A stretch of 64,000 bases of DNA from Rheinheimera sp. MMS21-TC3 (GTDB taxonomy: Bacteria; Pseudomonadota; Gammaproteobacteria; Enterobacterales; Alteromonadaceae): the NCBI RefSeq assembly GCF_032229285.1, contig NZ_CP135084.1, positions 1,426,001 through 1,490,000 on the forward strand, in the 5' to 3' direction. Each line of letters opens with the position of its first letter. The first letter of the stretch is position 1. A program made the position numbers and the translations under genes. This document shows positions 30,974 through 41,242 of the stretch, in pieces. Below the pieces are notes generated by a model. That model ran no database searches, was not told the origin of the DNA, and saw only the letters and a list, made by a program, of their open reading frames with translations.

Positions 30974-31035
30974 GAATATCAACACCAATAAAGAATTTAC
31001 TGCTCAGTGTGACTTTAGTCGTTATAGATGTAAAG

Positions 31036-31060
31036 CAAAAGGGCAGTAAGAACTGCCCAA
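31036..31060 (-). terminator. Probable terminator of cysK
   Basis: Read on the minus strand, GGGCAG-TTCTTA-CTGCCC is followed by TTTTGCTTT, about 57 bases after the cysK stop. Confidence 0.7.
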
Positions 31061-31114
31061 ATAATTATAAAGCAAAGGGTTAAGTAAGCTTAGTCGTTAA
31101 AGTTGTAAATAAGC

Positions 31115-32095
31115 TTAAACACTTAACTCTTTATCGGTAAACATATCTGTAAACAAGGCGCTAGATAAATAGCGCTCCGCCGCACTAGGCAAAATAATAA
31201 CGATATTTTTACCCGCATATTCTGGTTTTGCCGCTAAACGCTGGGCTGCAACTAAAGCGGCTCCTGAAGAAATACCGGCTAGAATACCTTCTTCACGCAT
31301 TAAGCGGTGAGTTGCGGCAAAGGCATCTTCACTGGATACGGTTTCAACTTGATCAATAACGCTTAAGTCTAAATTACCTGGAATAAAGCCTGCTCCTATT
31401 CCTTGAATTTTATGTGGTCCAGGAGTTAATGTTTCGCCTTTTTTCGCTTGGCTAATAACAGGTGATTCTGTTGGTTCAACCGCAACGGTTACTACATTTA
31501 ATTTTTTCTCGTGTTTTAAAAAACGACTTACACCCGTGATAGTGCCGCCAGTACCTACGCCGGCAATAAATACATCAACTTTACCTTCTAAGGCGGTATA
31601 AATTTCCGGCCCTGTGGTATCAAAGTGAATTTGTGGGTTAGCAGGGTTATCAAATTGGCCTAATAAAATGTACTTACTGGGATTTGAGGCCGCAATTTCT
31701 TTAGCTTTAGCAATAGCGCCATTCATGCCCTTGGCCGCTTCAGTTAACACTAAATTAGCGCCTAGAGCTTTTAATAATTTACGCCGCTCTAAACTCATGC
31801 TTTCTGGCATGGTGAGAGTTAATTTATAACCACGACTGGCAGCAACAAAGGCTAAAGCAATACCCGTATTGCCAGATGTTGGTTCGACAATCTCTTGCTC
31901 AGCTGTTAGTTTACCTTGTTTCTCGGCATCCCAAATTAACGCGGCGCCTAAACGACATTTTACACTAAAGCTGGGATTACGAGATTCAATTTTAGCATAA
32001 ACATTAGCCCCATTAGCGCTGGGAATAGTCCGGTTTAATTTGACCAAAGGGGTGTGACCGATAGACAATGAATTATCAGCGTAAACGTTTGCCAT
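31115..32095 (-). CDS. cysK: Cysteine synthase A (O-acetylserine sulfhydrylase)
   Basis: PLP enzyme that makes cysteine from O-acetylserine and sulfide. It has 326 residues, very close to E. coli CysK throughout: PLP Lys46 in NPSFSVKCR, the substrate loop [11 protein letters not shown], the phosphate-binding [11 protein letters not shown] and C-terminal SAAERYLS. The full-length match to CysK rather than CysM is clear from [13 protein letters not shown]. It supplies the cysteine that the desulfurase fusion upstream would use, though the genes are about 9 kb apart. Transcribed alone, ending at the hairpin near 31050. Confidence 0.95.
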
Positions 32096-32206
32096 CTTAA
32101 AGCTCCATAATAATAAGAAATTGCTACCAGAATACGCTACATAGAAAAAATTAAAACAAGCTTTTTGCTATAACATATACCGTTTTACTACTAAAAAGAG
32201 GATGCA

Positions 32207-33052
32207 ATGGCATTTGTAAGTACAGAGCACTATATCGTATCAGATGAGTTAGCCTTAGCCGTTAATGCTGCGGTTACACTAGAAAAGCCGTTATTAATTA
32301 AAGGTGAACCAGGTACAGGGAAAACCCGCTTAGCAGAAGAACTGGCCGCAAGTCTAGGCACCGATTTAATTCAATGGCATGTAAAGTCAACTACTAAGGC
32401 TCAGCATGGCTTATATGAGTATGATGCAGTATCGCGTTTGCGTGATAGCCAGCTAGGTAGTGATAAAGTGCAAAATATTGCCAACTACATTCGCCCCGGT
32501 AAATTATGGCAAGCCTTTACGGCTGAAAAACGACCGGTGTTATTAATAGATGAAATTGATAAAGCGGATATTGAGTTCCCCAATGACTTGTTGCATGAAT
32601 TAGACCAAATGGCATTTCATGTTTATGAAACAGGCGAACAAATTAAAGCCAAGCAAAGGCCTATTGTTATTATCACATCGAATAATGACAAAGAACTCCC
32701 GGATGCTTTTTTACGCCGTTGTTTCTTTCATTATATTCGTTTTCCTGATGCTGATACCTTAAGAGACATTGTCGCTGTACATTACCCACAAATCCAAGCG
32801 CAGTTATTAAATACAGCTTTAGAGATATTTTTTGATTTACGCCAAATGCCAGGGCTGAAGAAAAAGCCTTCAACTTCAGAATTACTTGATTGGTTAAAGT
32901 TATTATTAGCTGAAGATATTTCACCAGAAGTCCTGCACGATAAACAGCATCAAGGTGGTTTAATGCCCATGTTTGGCGCTTTATTAAAGAATGAACAAGA
33001 TGTTGAGCTAGTCGAAAAGTTAGCCTTTATGGCTAAGCGGCAGGGCAGGTAG
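32207..33052 (+). CDS. MoxR-type AAA+ ATPase
   Basis: A 281-residue AAA+ protein. Walker A GEPGTGKT is at residues 33-40, Walker B VLLIDEIDKAD with Asp115-Glu116, sensor 1 near IVIITSNNDKELPDAFLRRC with the Arg finger, and a helical lid at the C-terminus. Ribosome site AGAGGA precedes the ATG. It ends 4 bases before a VWA-domain gene. Such MoxR/VWA pairs act as chaperones that insert cofactors or remodel partner complexes (CoxD/CoxE, RavA/ViaA). No obvious client enzyme is in the window. Confidence 0.88.
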   Translation: MAFVSTEHYIVSDELALAVNAAVTLEKPLLIKGEPGTGKTRLAEELAASLGTDLIQWHVKSTTKAQHGLYEYDAVSRLRDSQLGSDKVQNIANYIRPGKLWQAFTAEKRPVLLIDEIDKADIEFPNDLLHELDQMAFHVYETGEQIKAKQRPIVIITSNNDKELPDAFLRRCFFHYIRFPDADTLRDIVAVHYPQIQAQLLNTALEIFFDLRQMPGLKKKPSTSELLDWLKLLLAEDISPEVLHDKQHQGGLMPMFGALLKNEQDVELVEKLAFMAKRQGR

Positions 33053-33056
33053 CTTA

Positions 33057-34229
33057 ATGCTGATTGCGTTTTTTTTCACTCTTAGAAACTATGGCTTAAA
33101 AGTCAGTATTACCGAGCTACTTGATTTACTTAATGCGCTTAAGCAACAAGTGGTCTTTGCTGATATTGACGCCTTTTATCACTTATCGCGGCTATGTTTA
33201 GTTAAAGATGAAACTCAGTACGATAAGTTTGATCGCGCTTTTACCGAGTATTTTACAGGTGTAGCCGAAGTGGATATTGCCGCTAGTATTCCTCCTGAGT
33301 GGCTAGTGCCTAGTATTCTTAAACAGCTCACGGATGAAGATAAGGCTAAGTTACAAGCTTTAGGCGGTTTAGATAAGTTACTAGAACAATTTCAACAGCG
33401 CTTAGCCGAGCAACAAAAAAAGCATAGTGGTGGTAATAAATGGATAGGCACTGGCGGCACTTCGCCTTATGGTGCTTATGGTTTTAACCCTGAAGGTATT
33501 CGTATTGGTCAGCAAGGCAGTGGGGCTAGACGGGCCGTTAAGGTATGGGATAAGCGCGAGTTTAAAGATCTCGACACTGATACCGAGCTGAATAATCGCA
33601 GTATTAAATTAGCCCTAAAGCAGCTAAGAAAATTTGCCAGAACAGGCGCTGAAACTGAGCTTGATTTACCCACTACCATTCAAGCAACTTCGGCTCAAGC
33701 CGGTTGGTTAGACTTACACTTTATGCGCGAGCGGCATAATGCCATTAAGCTATTAGTACTGTTTGATGTTGGTGGCTCTATGGACGACCATATTGTGCAA
33801 TGTCAGCAGTTATTTGCCGCAGTTAAGTCTGAATTTAAACATTTAGCTTTTTACTATTTTCATAACTGTGTATACGAAGCGGTGTGGCAAAACAATAAAC
33901 GCCGCCATAATGAACTGATTAGCGTTAACGATATTATTCATACGTACGGCAGTGATTATAAATTAATACTGGTAGGGGATGCGACTATGGGGCCCTACGA
34001 AATTGAATACCCAGGAGGTAGCGTCGAGCATTGGAACCCTGAGCCAGGCAAAGTATGGATGCAACGGCTATTAAGCCATTACCCTAAAGCTGTTTGGTTA
34101 AACCCACAGCCAGAGCGATATTGGCCGCATTATCATTCCATTAGTATTATGCAGAGGCTAATGGAAAATAGAATGTATCCATTAACCTTAAATGGTATTA
34201 ATCAGGCGATTAAAACCTTAGTTGGTTAA
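33057..34229 (+). CDS. VWA (CoxE-like) domain protein, partner of the AAA+ ATPase
   Basis: A 390-residue protein with a long N-terminal helical region and a C-terminal von Willebrand A domain from about residue 225. The metal-ion site is DVGGSM at 237-242, with Gly in place of the first Ser of the usual DxSxS, as is common in this COG3552/3825-type family. A Gly-rich linker (GGNKWIGTGGTSPYGAYG) lies near residues 125-145. Tight coupling to the MoxR gene shows they work together. The ViaA- or CoxE-like chaperone role is inferred from the pair. Confidence 0.85.
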   Translation: MLIAFFFTLRNYGLKVSITELLDLLNALKQQVVFADIDAFYHLSRLCLVKDETQYDKFDRAFTEYFTGVAEVDIAASIPPEWLVPSILKQLTDEDKAKLQALGGLDKLLEQFQQRLAEQQKKHSGGNKWIGTGGTSPYGAYGFNPEGIRIGQQGSGARRAVKVWDKREFKDLDTDTELNNRSIKLALKQLRKFARTGAETELDLPTTIQATSAQAGWLDLHFMRERHNAIKLLVLFDVGGSMDDHIVQCQQLFAAVKSEFKHLAFYYFHNCVYEAVWQNNKRRHNELISVNDIIHTYGSDYKLILVGDATMGPYEIEYPGGSVEHWNPEPGKVWMQRLLSHYPKAVWLNPQPERYWPHYHSISIMQRLMENRMYPLTLNGINQAIKTLVG

Positions 34230-34262: not shown

Positions 34263-34503
34263 CTAAGTTGTTTTATTTTTTAAAGGAATAAGCAGAGTTA
34301 GCGTGATCTGTTGCTGGTGCAACTGAGCGGTTAATGTACTATTTATAGCTTTAGCAAAAGTATCCGCGATGGAAAGACCTAACCCATAGTTACCACTTGC
34401 ACTTCTGGCTGAGTCTTTTTGCCACAAAGGTTCAAATAATTGCTTTAAATCGTCGTTGCTAAGTTTTGTTGCGCAAGTATTGCTAATAGCTAATTTAATT
34501 GCG
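34263..34503 (-). pseudogene. C-terminal remnant of a sensor histidine kinase (PmrB/BasS-like)
   Basis: On the minus strand this stretch reads as the end of a HATPase_c domain: IKLAISNT, then DDLKQLFEPLWQKDSARS (F box), then NYGLGLSIADTFAKA (G2 box), a final beta segment and a TAG stop. There is no N-box, H-box or membrane region, and the same frame hits a stop (TAA) shortly upstream. The kinase has therefore lost its 5' three quarters. Its 5' break meets the truncated phosphoethanolamine transferase fragment on the other strand. The remnant is too short to function. Confidence 0.8.
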
Positions 34504-34684
34504 TTTGCAGCTGGGTTATAGCGTTAGTAACAATGACTGCGTAACTCAGCAAACTGCGTTATCTTTTTCGCATGATAATATCTTTGATACTTTGCTCGGT
34601 CTTAGTCACGTTGATTCTAAGCTGTATCGTCCTGAGTTAGATATTTTGCAACCTTGCCAGAGAGCTTTAGTGGCACAAGGATAA
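34499..34684 (+). pseudogene. C-terminal remnant of a lipid A phosphoethanolamine transferase (EptA-like)
   Basis: About 60 codons ending at a TAA 18 bases before dgkA. The segment FSHDNIFDTLLGLSHVD, with YRPELDILQPC, is the hallmark C-terminus of EptA/PmrC-type transferases (compare YSHDNLFHSVLGL and YQPSLDIF). The membrane domain and the catalytic Thr and metal sites are missing, and no proper start codon or ribosome site is present. It is a gene fragment left by a deletion. The short spacing to dgkA fits an original eptA-dgkA operon. Confidence 0.8.
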
Positions 34685-34702
34685 TCATAAGAAGAGGTAG
34701 TC

Positions 34703-35080
34703 ATGAATTTTGAACCTAGTAAAAAACCGATAGGTTTAAGCCGAATTTTGTTAGCGTTTAAAAACTCTTGTCGTGCTTTTAATTGGCTAATAAAAAATGA
34801 AGTGGCTGTTAGGCAAGAAATTATTTTGTTAGTTATAAATATAGTATTAATTAGTATCTGGTCTATTAGTGTTTATGAAAAGTTACTTTTGCTTTGTGCC
34901 GTGTTATTTTTACTTTTTGCCGAAGTGATTAATACTGCCATTGAAGTGACAATAGACAGAATTAGCTATGAAATAAACCCCTTATCTGGCTTAGCTAAAG
35001 ATCTTGGTTCTGCTGCGGTGTTAATTGCTACAGTTATTTATAGTATGGTCTTATTAACTATTTTATATGTGAATTTTTAG
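34703..35080 (+). CDS. dgkA: Diacylglycerol kinase DgkA
   Basis: Small trimeric inner-membrane enzyme of 125 residues that phosphorylates diacylglycerol to phosphatidate. Three transmembrane helices follow an amphipathic N-terminus. The active-site signature EVINTAIEVTIDRIS and the following SGLAKDLGSAAVL are present. AAGAAGAGG gives a ribosome site. It recycles the diacylglycerol made when phosphoethanolamine is transferred from phosphatidylethanolamine, which explains why it sits behind an eptA gene, now a remnant here. It ends at a strong terminator. Confidence 0.95.
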   Translation: MNFEPSKKPIGLSRILLAFKNSCRAFNWLIKNEVAVRQEIILLVINIVLISIWSISVYEKLLLLCAVLFLLFAEVINTAIEVTIDRISYEINPLSGLAKDLGSAAVLIATVIYSMVLLTILYVNF

Positions 35081-35083
35081 ATT

Positions 35084-35114
35084 AAACAAAGGCTGCATTA
35101 AGCAGCCTTTGTTT
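35084..35114. terminator. Bidirectional terminator between dgkA and the tricorn-like gene
   Basis: Perfect 13-bp stem aaacaaaggctgc/gcagcctttgttt with a 5-base loop; A/T rich on both sides, between two convergent genes. Confidence 0.82.
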
Positions 35115-35122
35115 GGTTAATA

Positions 35123-38100
35123 CTATAGGCCTAGTTGTTTTGGCATAGCTGGGGCTTGGCTATGATCCGCTGGTGGGTTAGCGTTTAATTGTTCTAAGGT
35201 ATGCTCAATTGCCCGTTCTAATTGCACATCTATACCTTTATTTACGGCTATAGGGTCAAGCTCAACTTCAATGTCAGGGCTGACGCCTTCGTTTTCTATG
35301 CGCCACTCGCCATCAGGGGTATAAAAACGGAAGAAAGGTACAACATGAAAGCCGCCATCTATCATGCTTGGGTTGGCAGAAATACCTATTAACCCCCCCC
35401 AAGTTCTAGTGCCTATAGTTTTGCCCAAGTTTAAGCGCTTAAATGCCCAAGGTAAAAAGTCACCACCAGAGCCGGCATCTTGATCAATAAGCATTGTTTT
35501 AGGGCCATAAATAGCGCCACCTGGCGTAGTGAAGCCTAAGCCATCTCTGTCTTTCCAGCCAGATAAAAATGGCCGACTTAAGATCTCAGTAATATAGTTA
35601 GCCGCTTGGCCACCACCATTTTTGCGCTCATCAATAATTAATGCGGCTTTATCTACCTGAGCAAAAAACATTCGGTTAAAGTAGTAAAAACCGCCATCTG
35701 CTGTATTGGGTAAATACACATAAGCCAGTTTACCATTTGATTTTTTGGCAACTAATTGTCTATTTTGCTCTACCCAATGCCATAAACGTAACTGGCTTTC
35801 ATTAGCAATGGGCTCAACTGTGATATTACGGCTGTTTTTACCTTTGCTGTTGTCGGCAATGGTTAGCACGACTTGTTTACCAACAGTGTTTTCTAATAAT
35901 TGATAAATATTTTGCTCAGCAAATAATTCTTTGCCATTAATGGCTAATAAATATTCACCTGCTTTAACAGCAGTACCAGGAACGGCCAAAGGTGCAATTA
36001 CAAAAGGCGCCCAGCGATCACCTTGGTAAACTGTACTAAATAGGTAACGGTTATTACTAATGGTAAAGTCAGCGCCTAATAATCCAACTTGGCTAGATTT
36101 TTCTTGATGGGTGTCGCCACCACCAATACGGTTGTGGCCAACTTGTAGTTCAGCAATCATTGCCACTAAAACATCATTTAAGTCTTCACGGCGCTGGACA
36201 TGGGCAAGCATTGGTTGGTATTTATCGTAAATAGATTGCCAGTTAATACCGTGCATATTGGCATCATAAAAATACTCTTTTTGCATCCGCCACGCATCAT
36301 TGAAGATTTGCTGCCATTCTTGCACCGGATCAATAAAGCTTTTAACGTCAGCTAAACTAATAGTTTCAGGTTTTGGCTCGGCTACGGCATCTGCAACTTT
36401 ATAGCTGTTATCAGTAGCAACCAATAATATCTTTTTACCATCAGCGCTTAAACTAAAGCTAGCTAAATTATCTTGAATTTTAGTGCTGGTTTTATCTTTA
36501 AAATCAAATCGATATAAACTAGCGCCCTTGTTAGCTCTAGCCTGAGGTAATTCGTTGCTGCTGCCTGGTTGATTGTGTTGTAAGTAAAATAATGCACCAT
36601 CATTGGCAATGGCTAAGCTGTCGTAATTACGCTCTGCTATCGGTAGCGCCACGATACGATTGCTCAAACCAGCTAAGTCTATTTTTACAGCTTTAACTGC
36701 TGCATTGGTTTTAGCTGTCTCTTTGGCTTTTTCTGCTGTTTTGGGTTCATCACCTGTTTTTGCTAATAAAGGCGACTTTCCATCAACCGCTAATACCGCA
36801 ACATAAATACCTTGGCGTATAGGTCTTTCACGGGTAGATAAGTCTAAACCAACTTGAGAAGGACCTGTATTAACTGAAGCGGTAAAGTATAAATAATCTT
36901 GAGCAAAAACCGGATCATCAACATGACTCATGCCATCAGTAATTAAGGAGCTGTTGTTATTATTAAAGTCGAATAGCTTAATTTGGCTAAAGTAGTTTTC
37001 ACCTGCAACTGTATAAGCTAGATAGCGGCTATCAGCTGAAAAGCTAACTTTAAAATCAGCTCTGCGCAAAGATGTATCTAGTTTTTGAGTGTTTTTAGTT
37101 TTTATATCAAAGGCATAAAGGTTTAAATGATTGTCTTGGTATATCAGTTTTTGACCATTAGGTGACCAGCTTAGCAAAGTTAAATAGCCATTATTGTTTA
37201 AATCATAAGTTTTGCCAGCGCTTAAGCCGTCTTGGCTGCGGATAATAAGTTGATGTTTATTACCCTGATCTGAAATATAGGCTACTTGACTGCCATCTGG
37301 GCTCCACAAGCCTGAAAATTCACGAACACCTGAGGTTTGAGTAAGGTTACGGGTTGAGCCTTCATCTACCGGCACAGTAAAAATATCACCACGAGCACTT
37401 ACTATTAATCGTTGGCCAGTACTAGATAATTGTGCGGAAGTGATAGTTTTGCTTGCGTCTTTCCATTGCGGGCGGCGCTGTGCAGATTGGCTATTAATAG
37501 TAACAGGTATTGGCTGGCTTTGGCCGTTAGTTATATTTAACTGATATAAGTAGCCACCGGCAGCGTAAATAATATCATTATCATAACCTGCTGCAGATTC
37601 TATATCCCACTCTGTAAGTTGGGTAAGCTGGTTGACAGTCTTGGCCGAATAGCTAAATAAATTGACGGCTTGGTTATCGCGATCAGATAAAAAATATACC
37701 GTATCACCAAGCCAAAATGGATTAAATTCATTCGCATTAGGGTGAGGGATTTTCTCTAGCTTTTGCTTGGCTATATCAATTATCCATACTGGCGGGGTGC
37801 TACCACCGCGATGTAACCGCCAACCACTAGTACCGCTATAAGCCATATTGTTGGGACGATAGGCTAATTTTTTACCATCATCAGACCATTTACCTTCAAA
37901 GGCTATGGCTGGCATGACCTTTTGCTCATAGCCGCCAGTAATGGCAACTTCATATAATTGATTGCTCCGACTATTGGCCACTTCGCGATTAGAGGCAAAT
38001 AACACTTTTTTGCCGTCTGGGCTCCAACCATTAACGGTATCTGCTGACGGATGCCAAGTTAAACGTTGAGCCGTGCCGCCTGTGCTTGGCATAACATAAA

Positions 38101-38365
38101 CATCGGTATTATTGTCGTAGTTAGCCGAAAAAGCGATCCAGTTACCATCAGGAGAAAAATGCGGTGCAAATTCATCAGCTGGGTGGCTAGTAAGTTGCCG
38201 AGGATTTTGCCCATCGCGTTCGGCTAACCAGATATCGCCACCATAAACAAAGGTTAGCTTATCGGCCGAAATATCAGGTTGCCGTAATAACCGACTACCT
38301 TCACTGGCACAAAGGCTAGTGGAAGTTAGTATTGCCACTAACCATAAATGTCGAGGAGAAAACAT
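35123..38365 (-). CDS. Tricorn-protease-like S41 peptidase, exported
   Basis: A 1080-residue periplasmic peptidase. A signal peptide (about residues 1-20, ending SLCASEG) is followed by a WD40/PD40 propeller region (repeated SPDGNWIAFSANYD-type units), a tricorn C1 domain, a PDZ domain (GLLGADFTI onward) and the S41 catalytic domain with nucleophile Ser966 in DAGSGGDFLPW. Tricorn-type enzymes degrade oligopeptides. A run of eight G (minus strand; C on the plus strand, 35393-35400) lies in the catalytic domain and could be prone to slippage. Together with the S9 peptidase and the M49-like lipoprotein it suggests heavy use of peptides as nutrients. Confidence 0.9.
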   Translation of the reverse strand: MFSPRHLWLVAILTSTSLCASEGSRLLRQPDISADKLTFVYGGDIWLAERDGQNPRQLTSHPADEFAPHFSPDGNWIAFSANYDNNTDVYVMPSTGGTAQRLTWHPSADTVNGWSPDGKKVLFASNREVANSRSNQLYEVAITGGYEQKVMPAIAFEGKWSDDGKKLAYRPNNMAYSGTSGWRLHRGGSTPPVWIIDIAKQKLEKIPHPNANEFNPFWLGDTVYFLSDRDNQAVNLFSYSAKTVNQLTQLTEWDIESAAGYDNDIIYAAGGYLYQLNITNGQSQPIPVTINSQSAQRRPQWKDASKTITSAQLSSTGQRLIVSARGDIFTVPVDEGSTRNLTQTSGVREFSGLWSPDGSQVAYISDQGNKHQLIIRSQDGLSAGKTYDLNNNGYLTLLSWSPNGQKLIYQDNHLNLYAFDIKTKNTQKLDTSLRRADFKVSFSADSRYLAYTVAGENYFSQIKLFDFNNNNSSLITDGMSHVDDPVFAQDYLYFTASVNTGPSQVGLDLSTRERPIRQGIYVAVLAVDGKSPLLAKTGDEPKTAEKAKETAKTNAAVKAVKIDLAGLSNRIVALPIAERNYDSLAIANDGALFYLQHNQPGSSNELPQARANKGASLYRFDFKDKTSTKIQDNLASFSLSADGKKILLVATDNSYKVADAVAEPKPETISLADVKSFIDPVQEWQQIFNDAWRMQKEYFYDANMHGINWQSIYDKYQPMLAHVQRREDLNDVLVAMIAELQVGHNRIGGGDTHQEKSSQVGLLGADFTISNNRYLFSTVYQGDRWAPFVIAPLAVPGTAVKAGEYLLAINGKELFAEQNIYQLLENTVGKQVVLTIADNSKGKNSRNITVEPIANESQLRLWHWVEQNRQLVAKKSNGKLAYVYLPNTADGGFYYFNRMFFAQVDKAALIIDERKNGGGQAANYITEILSRPFLSGWKDRDGLGFTTPGGAIYGPKTMLIDQDAGSGGDFLPWAFKRLNLGKTIGTRTWGGLIGISANPSMIDGGFHVVPFFRFYTPDGEWRIENEGVSPDIEVELDPIAVNKGIDVQLERAIEHTLEQLNANPPADHSQAPAMPKQLGL

Positions 38366-38528
38366 GTAAAGTCCTTGAGTTAAGCATTCTAATATTTTTA
38401 ATTATAGCATTTAATAGCGAGAAAGAGTTCTGACTTCTGCTACTAAAACTAACAAATATAAACTGCAACACCTGTGCTAAAGTAGCGTAATATTAATGTT
38501 TTAGGCTAATAAACAATGGCAGCTAAAT

Positions 38529-39806
38529 ATGGTAATAAAAATGGCAAAGAATCCAGCTAATAAAAAAACGTTTTTAGGTCCTGCTGTATTAGTAACTGCG
38601 GCTTTTATTGGCCCAGGTACTGTTGTTTCAGCGTCATTAGCCGGGGCCAACTTTGGCTATGCCTTAATATGGGCCTTAGTGTTTTCGGTTTGTGCCACTA
38701 TGATATTACAGGAGATGGCGGCTAGATTAGGCATAGTGACAGGGAAAGGATTAGGTGAAAATTTACGTAATCTAGTTCAGCAACCTTTATTACGTTGGCC
38801 CTTATTGTTATTAGTTATTCTGGCTATAGTGATAGGTAACAGTGCTTATCAAGGTGGCAATATTACCGGTGCCTCTATGGGCGCTGAAACGCTCTGGGGT
38901 AAGAGTGCATGGCTGCAAAGCTGGTCACAACTGTCTAGTTTAAATCCTTGGGCATTAATCTTAGGCTTGCTGGCTGCATCGGTATTATGGTTTGGTAAAT
39001 ATAACGTTATAGAGCGTTTTTTAATTGTTTTGGTGTTGTTAATGAGCTTAGCCTTTATTAGCACTATGCTACTGACTAAACCAGATATTTTAGGCCTTTT
39101 ACAAGGTGCATTTATCCCCAGTATTCCAACTGGGGCGACTTTGACTGTTGCCGCTTTAATTGGCACTAGCGTAGTGCCTTATTCCTTATTTTTACATGCT
39201 GCTAGTGCCGCTCAAAAATGGCCAGCAGAGCAGGTAGAGATCCCTGAAGCCTTAAATGCGGCAAGGCGAGATATAGTTGTCGCTATTCCTTTAGGTGGTC
39301 TTATATCAATTGCTATTGTCTCAGCGGCAGCAGCAGCCTTTTTTGGCCAAGCTAAGCAATTAGAAAATGTTAGTCAGCTTGCGGTTGCCTTAGAGCCTTT
39401 ATTTGGCAAAGCGGCCACTTGGGGCTTATCTTTGGGCTTGCTCGCATCAGGCTTGTCTTCTGCTATTACAGCGCCGTTAGCAGCAGCTTATGCCATGGCT
39501 GGTATCTTAGGTAAACCTTTAGATTTAAAACAGCCGGTATTTCGAGTCACTTGGTTATTTATTATTGTTAGTGGGGTGATTTTCGCCTCTTTAGGCATTA
39601 AGCCAGTATCAGTTATTTGGTTTGCCCAAGTAGCTAATGGCATTTTATTACCGCTAATATGTTTTTGTTTATTATTAGCGATGAATCATAATATCTTAGG
39701 CCGTTATAAGAATAATAAATGGCAAAATATACTGGGTTCAATTGTGCTGTTGCTCAGTGTTATTTTAAGTTTTCGCAGTTTAGGCTTGGCTTTTAATTTA
39801 TTTTAA
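38529..39806 (+). CDS. NRAMP-family transporter lacking the canonical metal-site motifs
   Basis: Polytopic membrane protein of 425 residues with about 11 helices and the LeuT-like fold of the NRAMP family. In canonical MntH helix 1 carries DPGN; here the aligned segment is IGPGTVVSAS. The helix 6 MPHN site is replaced by VVPYSLFLH. The next parts, LAGANFGYALIWALVFS and RLGIVTGKGLG, are clearly NRAMP-like. Mn/Fe transport through the usual ligands is therefore not supported, and the substrate is unknown. The start at 38529 has no strong ribosome site; an internal ATG at 38541 is possible. Confidence 0.8.
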   Translation: MVIKMAKNPANKKTFLGPAVLVTAAFIGPGTVVSASLAGANFGYALIWALVFSVCATMILQEMAARLGIVTGKGLGENLRNLVQQPLLRWPLLLLVILAIVIGNSAYQGGNITGASMGAETLWGKSAWLQSWSQLSSLNPWALILGLLAASVLWFGKYNVIERFLIVLVLLMSLAFISTMLLTKPDILGLLQGAFIPSIPTGATLTVAALIGTSVVPYSLFLHAASAAQKWPAEQVEIPEALNAARRDIVVAIPLGGLISIAIVSAAAAAFFGQAKQLENVSQLAVALEPLFGKAATWGLSLGLLASGLSSAITAPLAAAYAMAGILGKPLDLKQPVFRVTWLFIIVSGVIFASLGIKPVSVIWFAQVANGILLPLICFCLLLAMNHNILGRYKNNKWQNILGSIVLLLSVILSFRSLGLAFNLF

Positions 39807-39934
39807 GCTTTGGTGTTTACTACAAAGTACTGATAATTGAATAAACTGCAGATAAATAGCACGTTTTACTAGTAATTACCGCTATAATAGCCACTAGGAA
39901 TAGCATAACAGTTGTGATGCTAGTGGGAGTAAAA

Positions 39935-41242
39935 ATGACAACCTTTGAATATGTTCTGTTAATGCTATTGTTAGTAGCGGGCAGTGCCTTTTTTTCTATC
40001 TCAGAAATTGCATTAGCTGCAGCGCGCAAAATGCGGCTGCGCTTTATGGCCAGTGAAGGCAATATTAACGCTGAAAAAGTATTAACGTTACAAGAGCAGC
40101 CGGGCAACTTTTTTACCATAGTACAAATAGGCTTAAATGCAGTGGCTATATTGGGTGGTATTTTAGGTGAAGCTGCTTTTACGCCTTATTTTACACAATT
40201 GTTAGCGTTGTTCTTCACTGGCACTTGGTTATCTAGTGTTGCTTTTGGCTTATCAGTCTTTTTTATTACCTCATTATTTATTCTATTTGCCGACTTAATG
40301 CCTAAACGACTGGCGATGATAGCCCCAGAATATATAGCAGTGCGGGTTGTTAAACCTATGCTGTTTTTAATTATGCTATTAAAGCCCTTTGTCTGGTTAT
40401 TTAATGGCTTAGCTAATGTTATTTTCAGCTTATTTAAAGTACCCACTATGCGAAAAGATGATATTACGCCAGATGATATTATCGCCATGATGGAAGCAGG
40501 TGCCCAAGCAGGGGTATTACAGCAGCATGAGCATCAATTACTAGAAAATGTATTTGATATGGAGTCGCGTACAGTAACTTCTGCTATGACAGCGCGGGAA
40601 AGCTTAGTGTTCTTTATGAAAAGCGAGTCTTTAGCCGATATTAAAGATAAAATTTCTCAGCACCCGCATGCTAAGTTTTTAGTCTGTGATCAAGTGCTAG
40701 ATCATGTTGTTGGTTATGTCGATGCGCGAGATATTTTGCTGCAAGTGTTACATGAACAACCGATATCTCTGAACAAAGAAGGCATAGTTCGTACAGCACT
40801 AATTATTCCTGATACTTTATCTTTATATGAAGTCTTAGAGCACTTTAAATCTGCAGGGGTTGATTTTGCCGTTATTATGAATGAATACGCTTTAGTGGTA
40901 GGTATTATTACTCTTAAAGATGTGATGAGTATAGTTATGGGCGAATTAGTGAATTCTGAAGAAGACCAAATCGTTGCTCGCGACAGTAATTCTTGGTTAG
41001 TAGAAGGCTTAACCCCGCTAGAAGATGTGATGCGAGCTTTGTCTATAGACAGTTTCCCCAATCAAGAAAACTATGAAACCATTGCCGGCTTTATGATGTA
41101 TACCTTGCGCAAAATTCCTAAGCGGACCGACTTTGTTATTCATCAAGGTTATAAATTTGAAGTGGTCGATATTGACAGCTATAAAATTGACCAGCTTTTA
41201 GTGACCAAAATAGGCGCTGAGCCTTTGGATATAAGCGCTTAA
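39935..41242 (+). CDS. paeA: Polyamine export protein PaeA/YtfL-like (CNNM/CorC family)
   Basis: Inner-membrane protein of 435 residues with an N-terminal DUF21/CNNM transmembrane domain, a CBS pair (about residues 205-330) and a C-terminal CorC_HlyC domain. Long stretches equal E. coli YtfL, for example GNFFTIVQIGLNAVAILGG, the RKDDITPDDI segment, EYALVVGIITLKDVM and YKFEVVDID. E. coli PaeA reduces cytoplasmic putrescine and cadaverine under stress. The ATG at 39935 is chosen because GGGAG lies 6 bases upstream; the frame opens at 39914 but without a ribosome site. Confidence 0.9.
   Translation: MTTFEYVLLMLLLVAGSAFFSISEIALAAARKMRLRFMASEGNINAEKVLTLQEQPGNFFTIVQIGLNAVAILGGILGEAAFTPYFTQLLALFFTGTWLSSVAFGLSVFFITSLFILFADLMPKRLAMIAPEYIAVRVVKPMLFLIMLLKPFVWLFNGLANVIFSLFKVPTMRKDDITPDDIIAMMEAGAQAGVLQQHEHQLLENVFDMESRTVTSAMTARESLVFFMKSESLADIKDKISQHPHAKFLVCDQVLDHVVGYVDARDILLQVLHEQPISLNKEGIVRTALIIPDTLSLYEVLEHFKSAGVDFAVIMNEYALVVGIITLKDVMSIVMGELVNSEEDQIVARDSNSWLVEGLTPLEDVMRALSIDSFPNQENYETIAGFMMYTLRKIPKRTDFVIHQGYKFEVVDIDSYKIDQLLVTKIGAEPLDISA

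Follow-up and report, generated by a model that had tools for sequence, protein, structure and literature searches.

Probable deletion of a five-gene lipid A modification module, with retention of dgkA, in Rheinheimera sp. MMS21-TC3

A chromosomal locus of Rheinheimera sp. MMS21-TC3 very probably once carried a lipid A modification module that was lost by a deletion of about 5.76 kb, with the diacylglycerol kinase gene dgkA kept. The locus lies in a window of 64,000 nucleotides (contig NZ_CP135084.1, positions 1,426,001–1,490,000), and its features are listed in Table 1 with those of its intact counterpart in Rheinheimera salexigens (genome G019), the closest relative compared. The case is well documented and ordinary in kind, the lost module being of a known type.

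Table 1. Features of the locus in the window and of the corresponding locus in R. salexigens (strands in window orientation).
Feature	Genome	Position or length	Strand	Basis or remark
VWA/CoxE-like gene, left flank	Window	33057..34229	+	Intact; 90% identical in R. salexigens, where it adjoins the kinase gene
Histidine kinase stub, C-terminal end, ATPase domain only	Window	34263..34502	-	HATPase_c match and alignment to R. salexigens kinase
Deletion junction (probable)	Window	Interval 34487..34532		Split alignments against R. salexigens
EptA stub, C-terminal end	Window	34532..34684, inside open frame 34499-34684	+	NCBIfam EptA match and alignment to R. salexigens EptA
dgkA, intact gene for a predicted diacylglycerol kinase	Window	34703..35080	+	DAGK_prokar match
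S41 peptidase gene, right flank	Window	35123..38365	-	Intact; 86% identical in R. salexigens, adjoining dgkA there too
AAA gene, then VWA gene	R. salexigens			Window orientation; left of the kinase gene
Kinase	R. salexigens	470 aa	-	
OmpR-type regulator	R. salexigens	225 aa	-	
MdoB/LtaS-like Sulfatase-fold protein	R. salexigens	722 aa	+	Best named match phosphoglycerol transferase I
EptA	R. salexigens	576 aa	+	Both domains, EptA_B_N and Sulfatase
DgkA	R. salexigens		+	After EptA; followed by the S41 peptidase gene on the minus strand

Between the VWA/CoxE-like gene and the S41 peptidase gene, which we take to be Tricorn-like, the window holds two gene remnants and one complete gene. The initial annotation had read the remnants as no more than the ATPase end of a histidine kinase and the end of a phosphoethanolamine transferase, and both readings are borne out. 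The 79 residues of the kinase stub match positions 49–109 of 111 of the Pfam HATPase_c model (E = 9.4e-6, 26.5 bits against a cut-off of 26.4) and align with residues 394–467 of the R. salexigens kinase, firm homology being limited to 34263–34489; the phospho-acceptor domain, at residues 254–315 of the R. salexigens protein, is missing. The plus-strand frame matches the NCBIfam EptA model only at positions 496–544 of 546 (E = 1e-9) and also the C-termini of MCR models, has no Pfam match, and aligns with residues 521–564 of the R. salexigens EptA. In an alignment to 5fgn it begins past the conserved SDHGES stretch, to which we ascribe a functional role, and it does not show the combination of EptA_B_N membrane domain and Sulfatase-fold catalytic domain by which EptA is recognised. 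Relative to R. salexigens, the aligned codons (70 in the kinase stub, 44 in the EptA stub) contain no stops and no gaps; upstream of the junction, stops are met in both frames. The third gene, previously annotated as an intact dgkA, is indeed whole. Its product covers positions 2–102 of 102 of DAGK_prokar (E = 1.9e-23, 82.6 bits against a cut-off of 22.3), aligns over residues 7–122 with the solved DgkA 3ze4 (E = 1.7e-17), and is predicted to act as a diacylglycerol kinase.

Among 41 genomes searched for DgkA, the window genome included (35 with a match), a close match outside the window genome was found in R. salexigens only (79% identical), the next being 50%, also in R. salexigens, and 47%. 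R. salexigens has the whole five-gene module between the same flanks as in the window, in the divergent arrangement that the initial annotation had proposed as ancestral, with kinase and regulator on the minus strand and eptA-dgkA on the plus strand. The kinase and EptA are full-length there. The R. salexigens EptA scores 562.8 bits against a cut-off of 500 for NF028537 (phosphoethanolamine--lipid A transferase) and lies under the stricter EptA equivalog (497.1 against 660) and under the MCR cut-offs. For the 722-residue protein, the MdoB label denotes the best named match only, since phosphoglycerol transferase I is reached at 73.7 bits, far under the cut-off of 572. The regulator (150.9 bits against 330 for PmrA) and the kinase (72.2 against 314 for PmrB) fall short of the curated cut-offs, and the PmrAB name given earlier to the pair stands as an analogy, not as an assignment. 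By gene content (Pfam, NCBIfam), that is, a regulator pair with dgkA, eptA and an mdoB-like gene, the locus is of the CarRS-eptA type, and by analogy its regulator would activate the enzyme operon.

The position of the module was compared across the genus. A match to the module kinase at E ≤ 1e-40 occurs in R. salexigens alone among the 31 genomes, and the VWA and S41 genes flank the same locus in R. salexigens and the window genome. In the eight other genomes with both genes on one contig they are at least 80 kb apart; as far as the genomes allow a judgement, the position is therefore particular to the window genome and R. salexigens. Elsewhere in the genus there are more distantly related clusters with these kinds of gene, their MdoB/LtaS-like proteins being about 44% identical.

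Two further observations concern R. salexigens. A second eptA (538 aa) and a second dgkA, identified by EptA_B_N and DAGK matches, lie at L042:3664-9221 in a cluster that looks mobile; its other genes are presumably cation-efflux-like and PAP2-like, with what we take to be an IS66-like transposase gene adjoining and an RND efflux gene near. A response-regulator match with two internal stops at G019:C1:1043584-1044246 is probably a pseudogene.

Against R. salexigens, the flanks align at 81.3% (window 31000–34219) and 77.6% (34703–39999); the only other aligned sequence in the interval is 144 bases from the kinase end (75.0%) and 83 bases from the eptA end (74.7%). The missing sequence, about 5.76 kb, is a single unbroken block that runs from one stub to the other and comprises the regulator gene, the intergenic region, the MdoB-like gene, the 5' portion of the kinase gene and most of eptA. 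Alignment to a relative with eptA beside dgkA thus gives the single contiguous gap that the initial annotation had anticipated. Its account of the deleted content, from the kinase middle to the eptA end, is correct and had omitted the MdoB/LtaS-like gene; its claim of one deletion agrees with the gap, a single event being the simplest reading and not a proven one. In two-sided alignment, 10 of the 12 best splits fall at 34486–34529 with 5753–5758 bases missing (best 34487/34488), and the junction, earlier placed at about 34500, is thereby located to about 45 bases. The other two splits (34624–34625, 5829 bases missing, score 268 against 274) conflict with the protein alignment, which tracks EptA from 34532. 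Between the two R. salexigens sites that correspond to the deletion edges, the longest direct word in common has 6 bases, against a mean of 6.6 and a maximum of 10 in shuffled sequence; given no repeat beyond chance, illegitimate deletion is the likely mechanism.

Several successive deletions with decay, in place of one event, would leave a similar picture, and we regard this as improbable, though it is the strongest of the alternatives. About 25–40 junction bases can be assigned with confidence to neither stub, as such a history would allow. The nearest DgkA clusters point the same way: P0122 (92% identical, longest contig 147565) and P0123 (86%, 99059) have no EptA with a longest contig of the same size among the best 120 of 7999 EptA relatives, whereas other lineages do pair DgkA and EptA by longest contig (3134 for P0128 and P0002; 91508 for P0132 and P0004). 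The loss may therefore be older and common to the P0122 and P0123 lineages. Against a stepwise history, only about 45 bases lie where the stubs meet, no other pieces of the module and no inserted element are seen, the aligned codons are free of stops and gaps, and the similarity of the EptA stub to four outgroup EptAs is about that of the two nearest intact relatives. The stub has 31/46 identities with P0003 (intact relatives 33/46 and 33/46), 27/51 with P0004 (24/51 and 25/51), 24/48 with P0005 (27/48 and 23/48) and 26/47 with P0007 (24/47 and 25/47). Together with the uninterrupted codons, this similarity suggests that most of the stub divergence accrued while the genes were still whole. The outgroup comparison is a better hint on the age of the loss than dN/dS, which is 0.120 for dgkA and 0.117 for the kinase stub at saturated dS values of 1.1–2.0 and is undefined for the EptA stub; the two ratios do not discriminate, and selection on dgkA is therefore not demonstrated by them.

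That the stubs are real short genes making useful peptides is very hard to credit: both frames are open and the kinase stub has a dN/dS of about 0.12, but at a dS of about 2, which is saturated, while each stub starts in the middle of a domain of a gene that is full-length in R. salexigens, TTG is the only type of start codon in either frame, no candidate of similar size (0.55–1.75 times the query length) matched the EptA frame among about 5.8 billion proteins, and the divergence pattern is the one expected if it mostly accrued in whole genes. Equally remote is an assembly artefact in a strain that still has the module, as the genome is in one contig and 99.97% complete, no 14-mer of 34400–34620 is repeated in the window on either strand, the R. 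salexigens edges share no repeat beyond chance, and no other part of the assembly contains the missing genes.

Loss of the module by deletion is matched by what the rest of the genome lacks. In its 3,136,108 bases, searches for Sulfatase, EptA_B_N and PMT (ArnT-type) domains gave no match, with E. coli positive as a control in each; no match to the module kinase was found at E ≤ 1e-40, and the best match to the module regulator is 37% identical. These absences fit the earlier suggestion that the strain is without this lipid A modification, and judged from its gene content the strain should not make the modification of this module. EptA_B_N is found in 18 of the 31 genomes of the genus and is absent from the other 13, so that such absence is common; a Sulfatase match is found in 27, the exceptions being G000, G010, G011 and G023.

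DgkA, on the other hand, is found in 30 of the 31 genomes, with one copy in the window genome, where the module dgkA is the sole DAGK_prokar match, and two in R. salexigens. In genome G043, dgkA lies at L079:5069-5440 between genes that we take to be slmA and pyrE. Of 17 other loci examined in the genus, 6 show the same placement and 10 have an MdoB/LtaS-like neighbour instead, which weakens the idea that the slmA-pyrE gene is the usual copy of the genus. The slmA-pyrE interval holds no dgkA match in the window genome (L082:4943-5203) or in R. salexigens (the same interval of L083). Since this site is empty in the window genome, the module dgkA is the last copy there, and it may have been spared for that reason. 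A last dgkA is, however, not always kept, as genome G010, 99% complete, has no DAGK_prokar, Sulfatase or EptA_B_N match. A YicC-like gene of R. salexigens at L083:2721-3579 was recovered in two overlapping tblastn pieces, possibly through a frameshift or a sequencing error. Near dgkA in the window, no promoter-like site was seen on the plus strand, one was seen on the minus strand (shuffles average 3.6), and no terminator-like site was seen; that dgkA is expressed by read-through from the VWA gene is no more than conjecture.

Twelve of the 13 genomes of the genus that lack EptA still carry DgkA, as do 3 of the 4 in which no Sulfatase match was found, and in the window genome the last dgkA has outlasted the rest of its module. 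MdoG, which partners the classical glucan-linked source of diacylglycerol, is absent from all 31 genomes, with E. coli positive as a control. We consider it possible, although we do not favor it, that DgkA in this genus has a job independent of EptA and of any sulfatase-fold transferase.

The nearest described system that we found is the CarRS system of Vibrio. According to the excerpted text of PMC10433830, a dgkA-eptA-mdoB operon of Vibrio vulnificus is under activation by CarR; polymyxin B resistance depends in part on EptA, and dgkA and mdoB are reported to be needed for resistance to be complete. In gene content the R. salexigens locus agrees with this system, having a two-component pair with EptA, DgkA and an MdoB-type transferase, five kinds of gene in all; it differs in the order MdoB-like, EptA, DgkA, divergent from the regulator pair, and the window retains only dgkA. 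In the Vibrio Harveyi clade, RstAB controls dgkA-eptA, and colistin resistance involves joint action of DgkA and EptA, as stated in the excerpt of PMC12064563; a regulator pair near dgkA-eptA is again the common feature, but that excerpt names no MdoB-like gene, and the locus is intact there and collapsed in the window. DgkA is held to recycle the diacylglycerol released by such transferases (excerpts of PMC12064563 and PMC7559476). The mcr-3-dgkA pair likewise links a phosphoethanolamine transferase to a diacylglycerol-recycling dgkA but is mobile and intact (PMC7559476, in excerpt), whereas the window locus is chromosomal and has lost the transferase. In Pseudocolwellia sp. AS88 (L031), kinase and regulator lie on one strand and dgkA, MdoB-like and eptA diverge from them; this locus is intact and differs in enzyme gene order, with 37–56% identity to the R. 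salexigens proteins. Among the literature matches listed, no title or abstract opening describes the present locus.

The following history best accounts for the locus. The ancestral site very probably carried five genes for lipid A modification, those of the sensor kinase and regulator on the minus strand and those of the MdoB/LtaS-like transferase, EptA and DgkA divergent on the plus strand. By analogy with Vibrio CarRS, kinase and regulator would have switched on the enzymes; EptA would then have passed phosphoethanolamine on from phosphatidylethanolamine to lipid A, and the diacylglycerol set free would have been returned to phosphatidic acid by DgkA. In the window lineage, a deletion of about 5.76 kb very probably took the regulator and MdoB-like genes, the 5' portion of the kinase gene and roughly nine tenths of eptA, along with the region between the divergent operons and its presumed promoters. 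Both stubs are then dead, and dgkA survives severed from its presumed promoter, probably because it was the last dgkA of the genome.

Taken as a whole, the locus is a clean case of module loss with an intact sister locus for comparison, and it leaves the small puzzle that the recycling gene dgkA stays. It offers a natural setting in which to ask what DgkA does once none of the searched diacylglycerol-releasing transferases remains. A job of DgkA independent of EptA, if real, would suggest another source of diacylglycerol, or another substrate such as undecaprenol.
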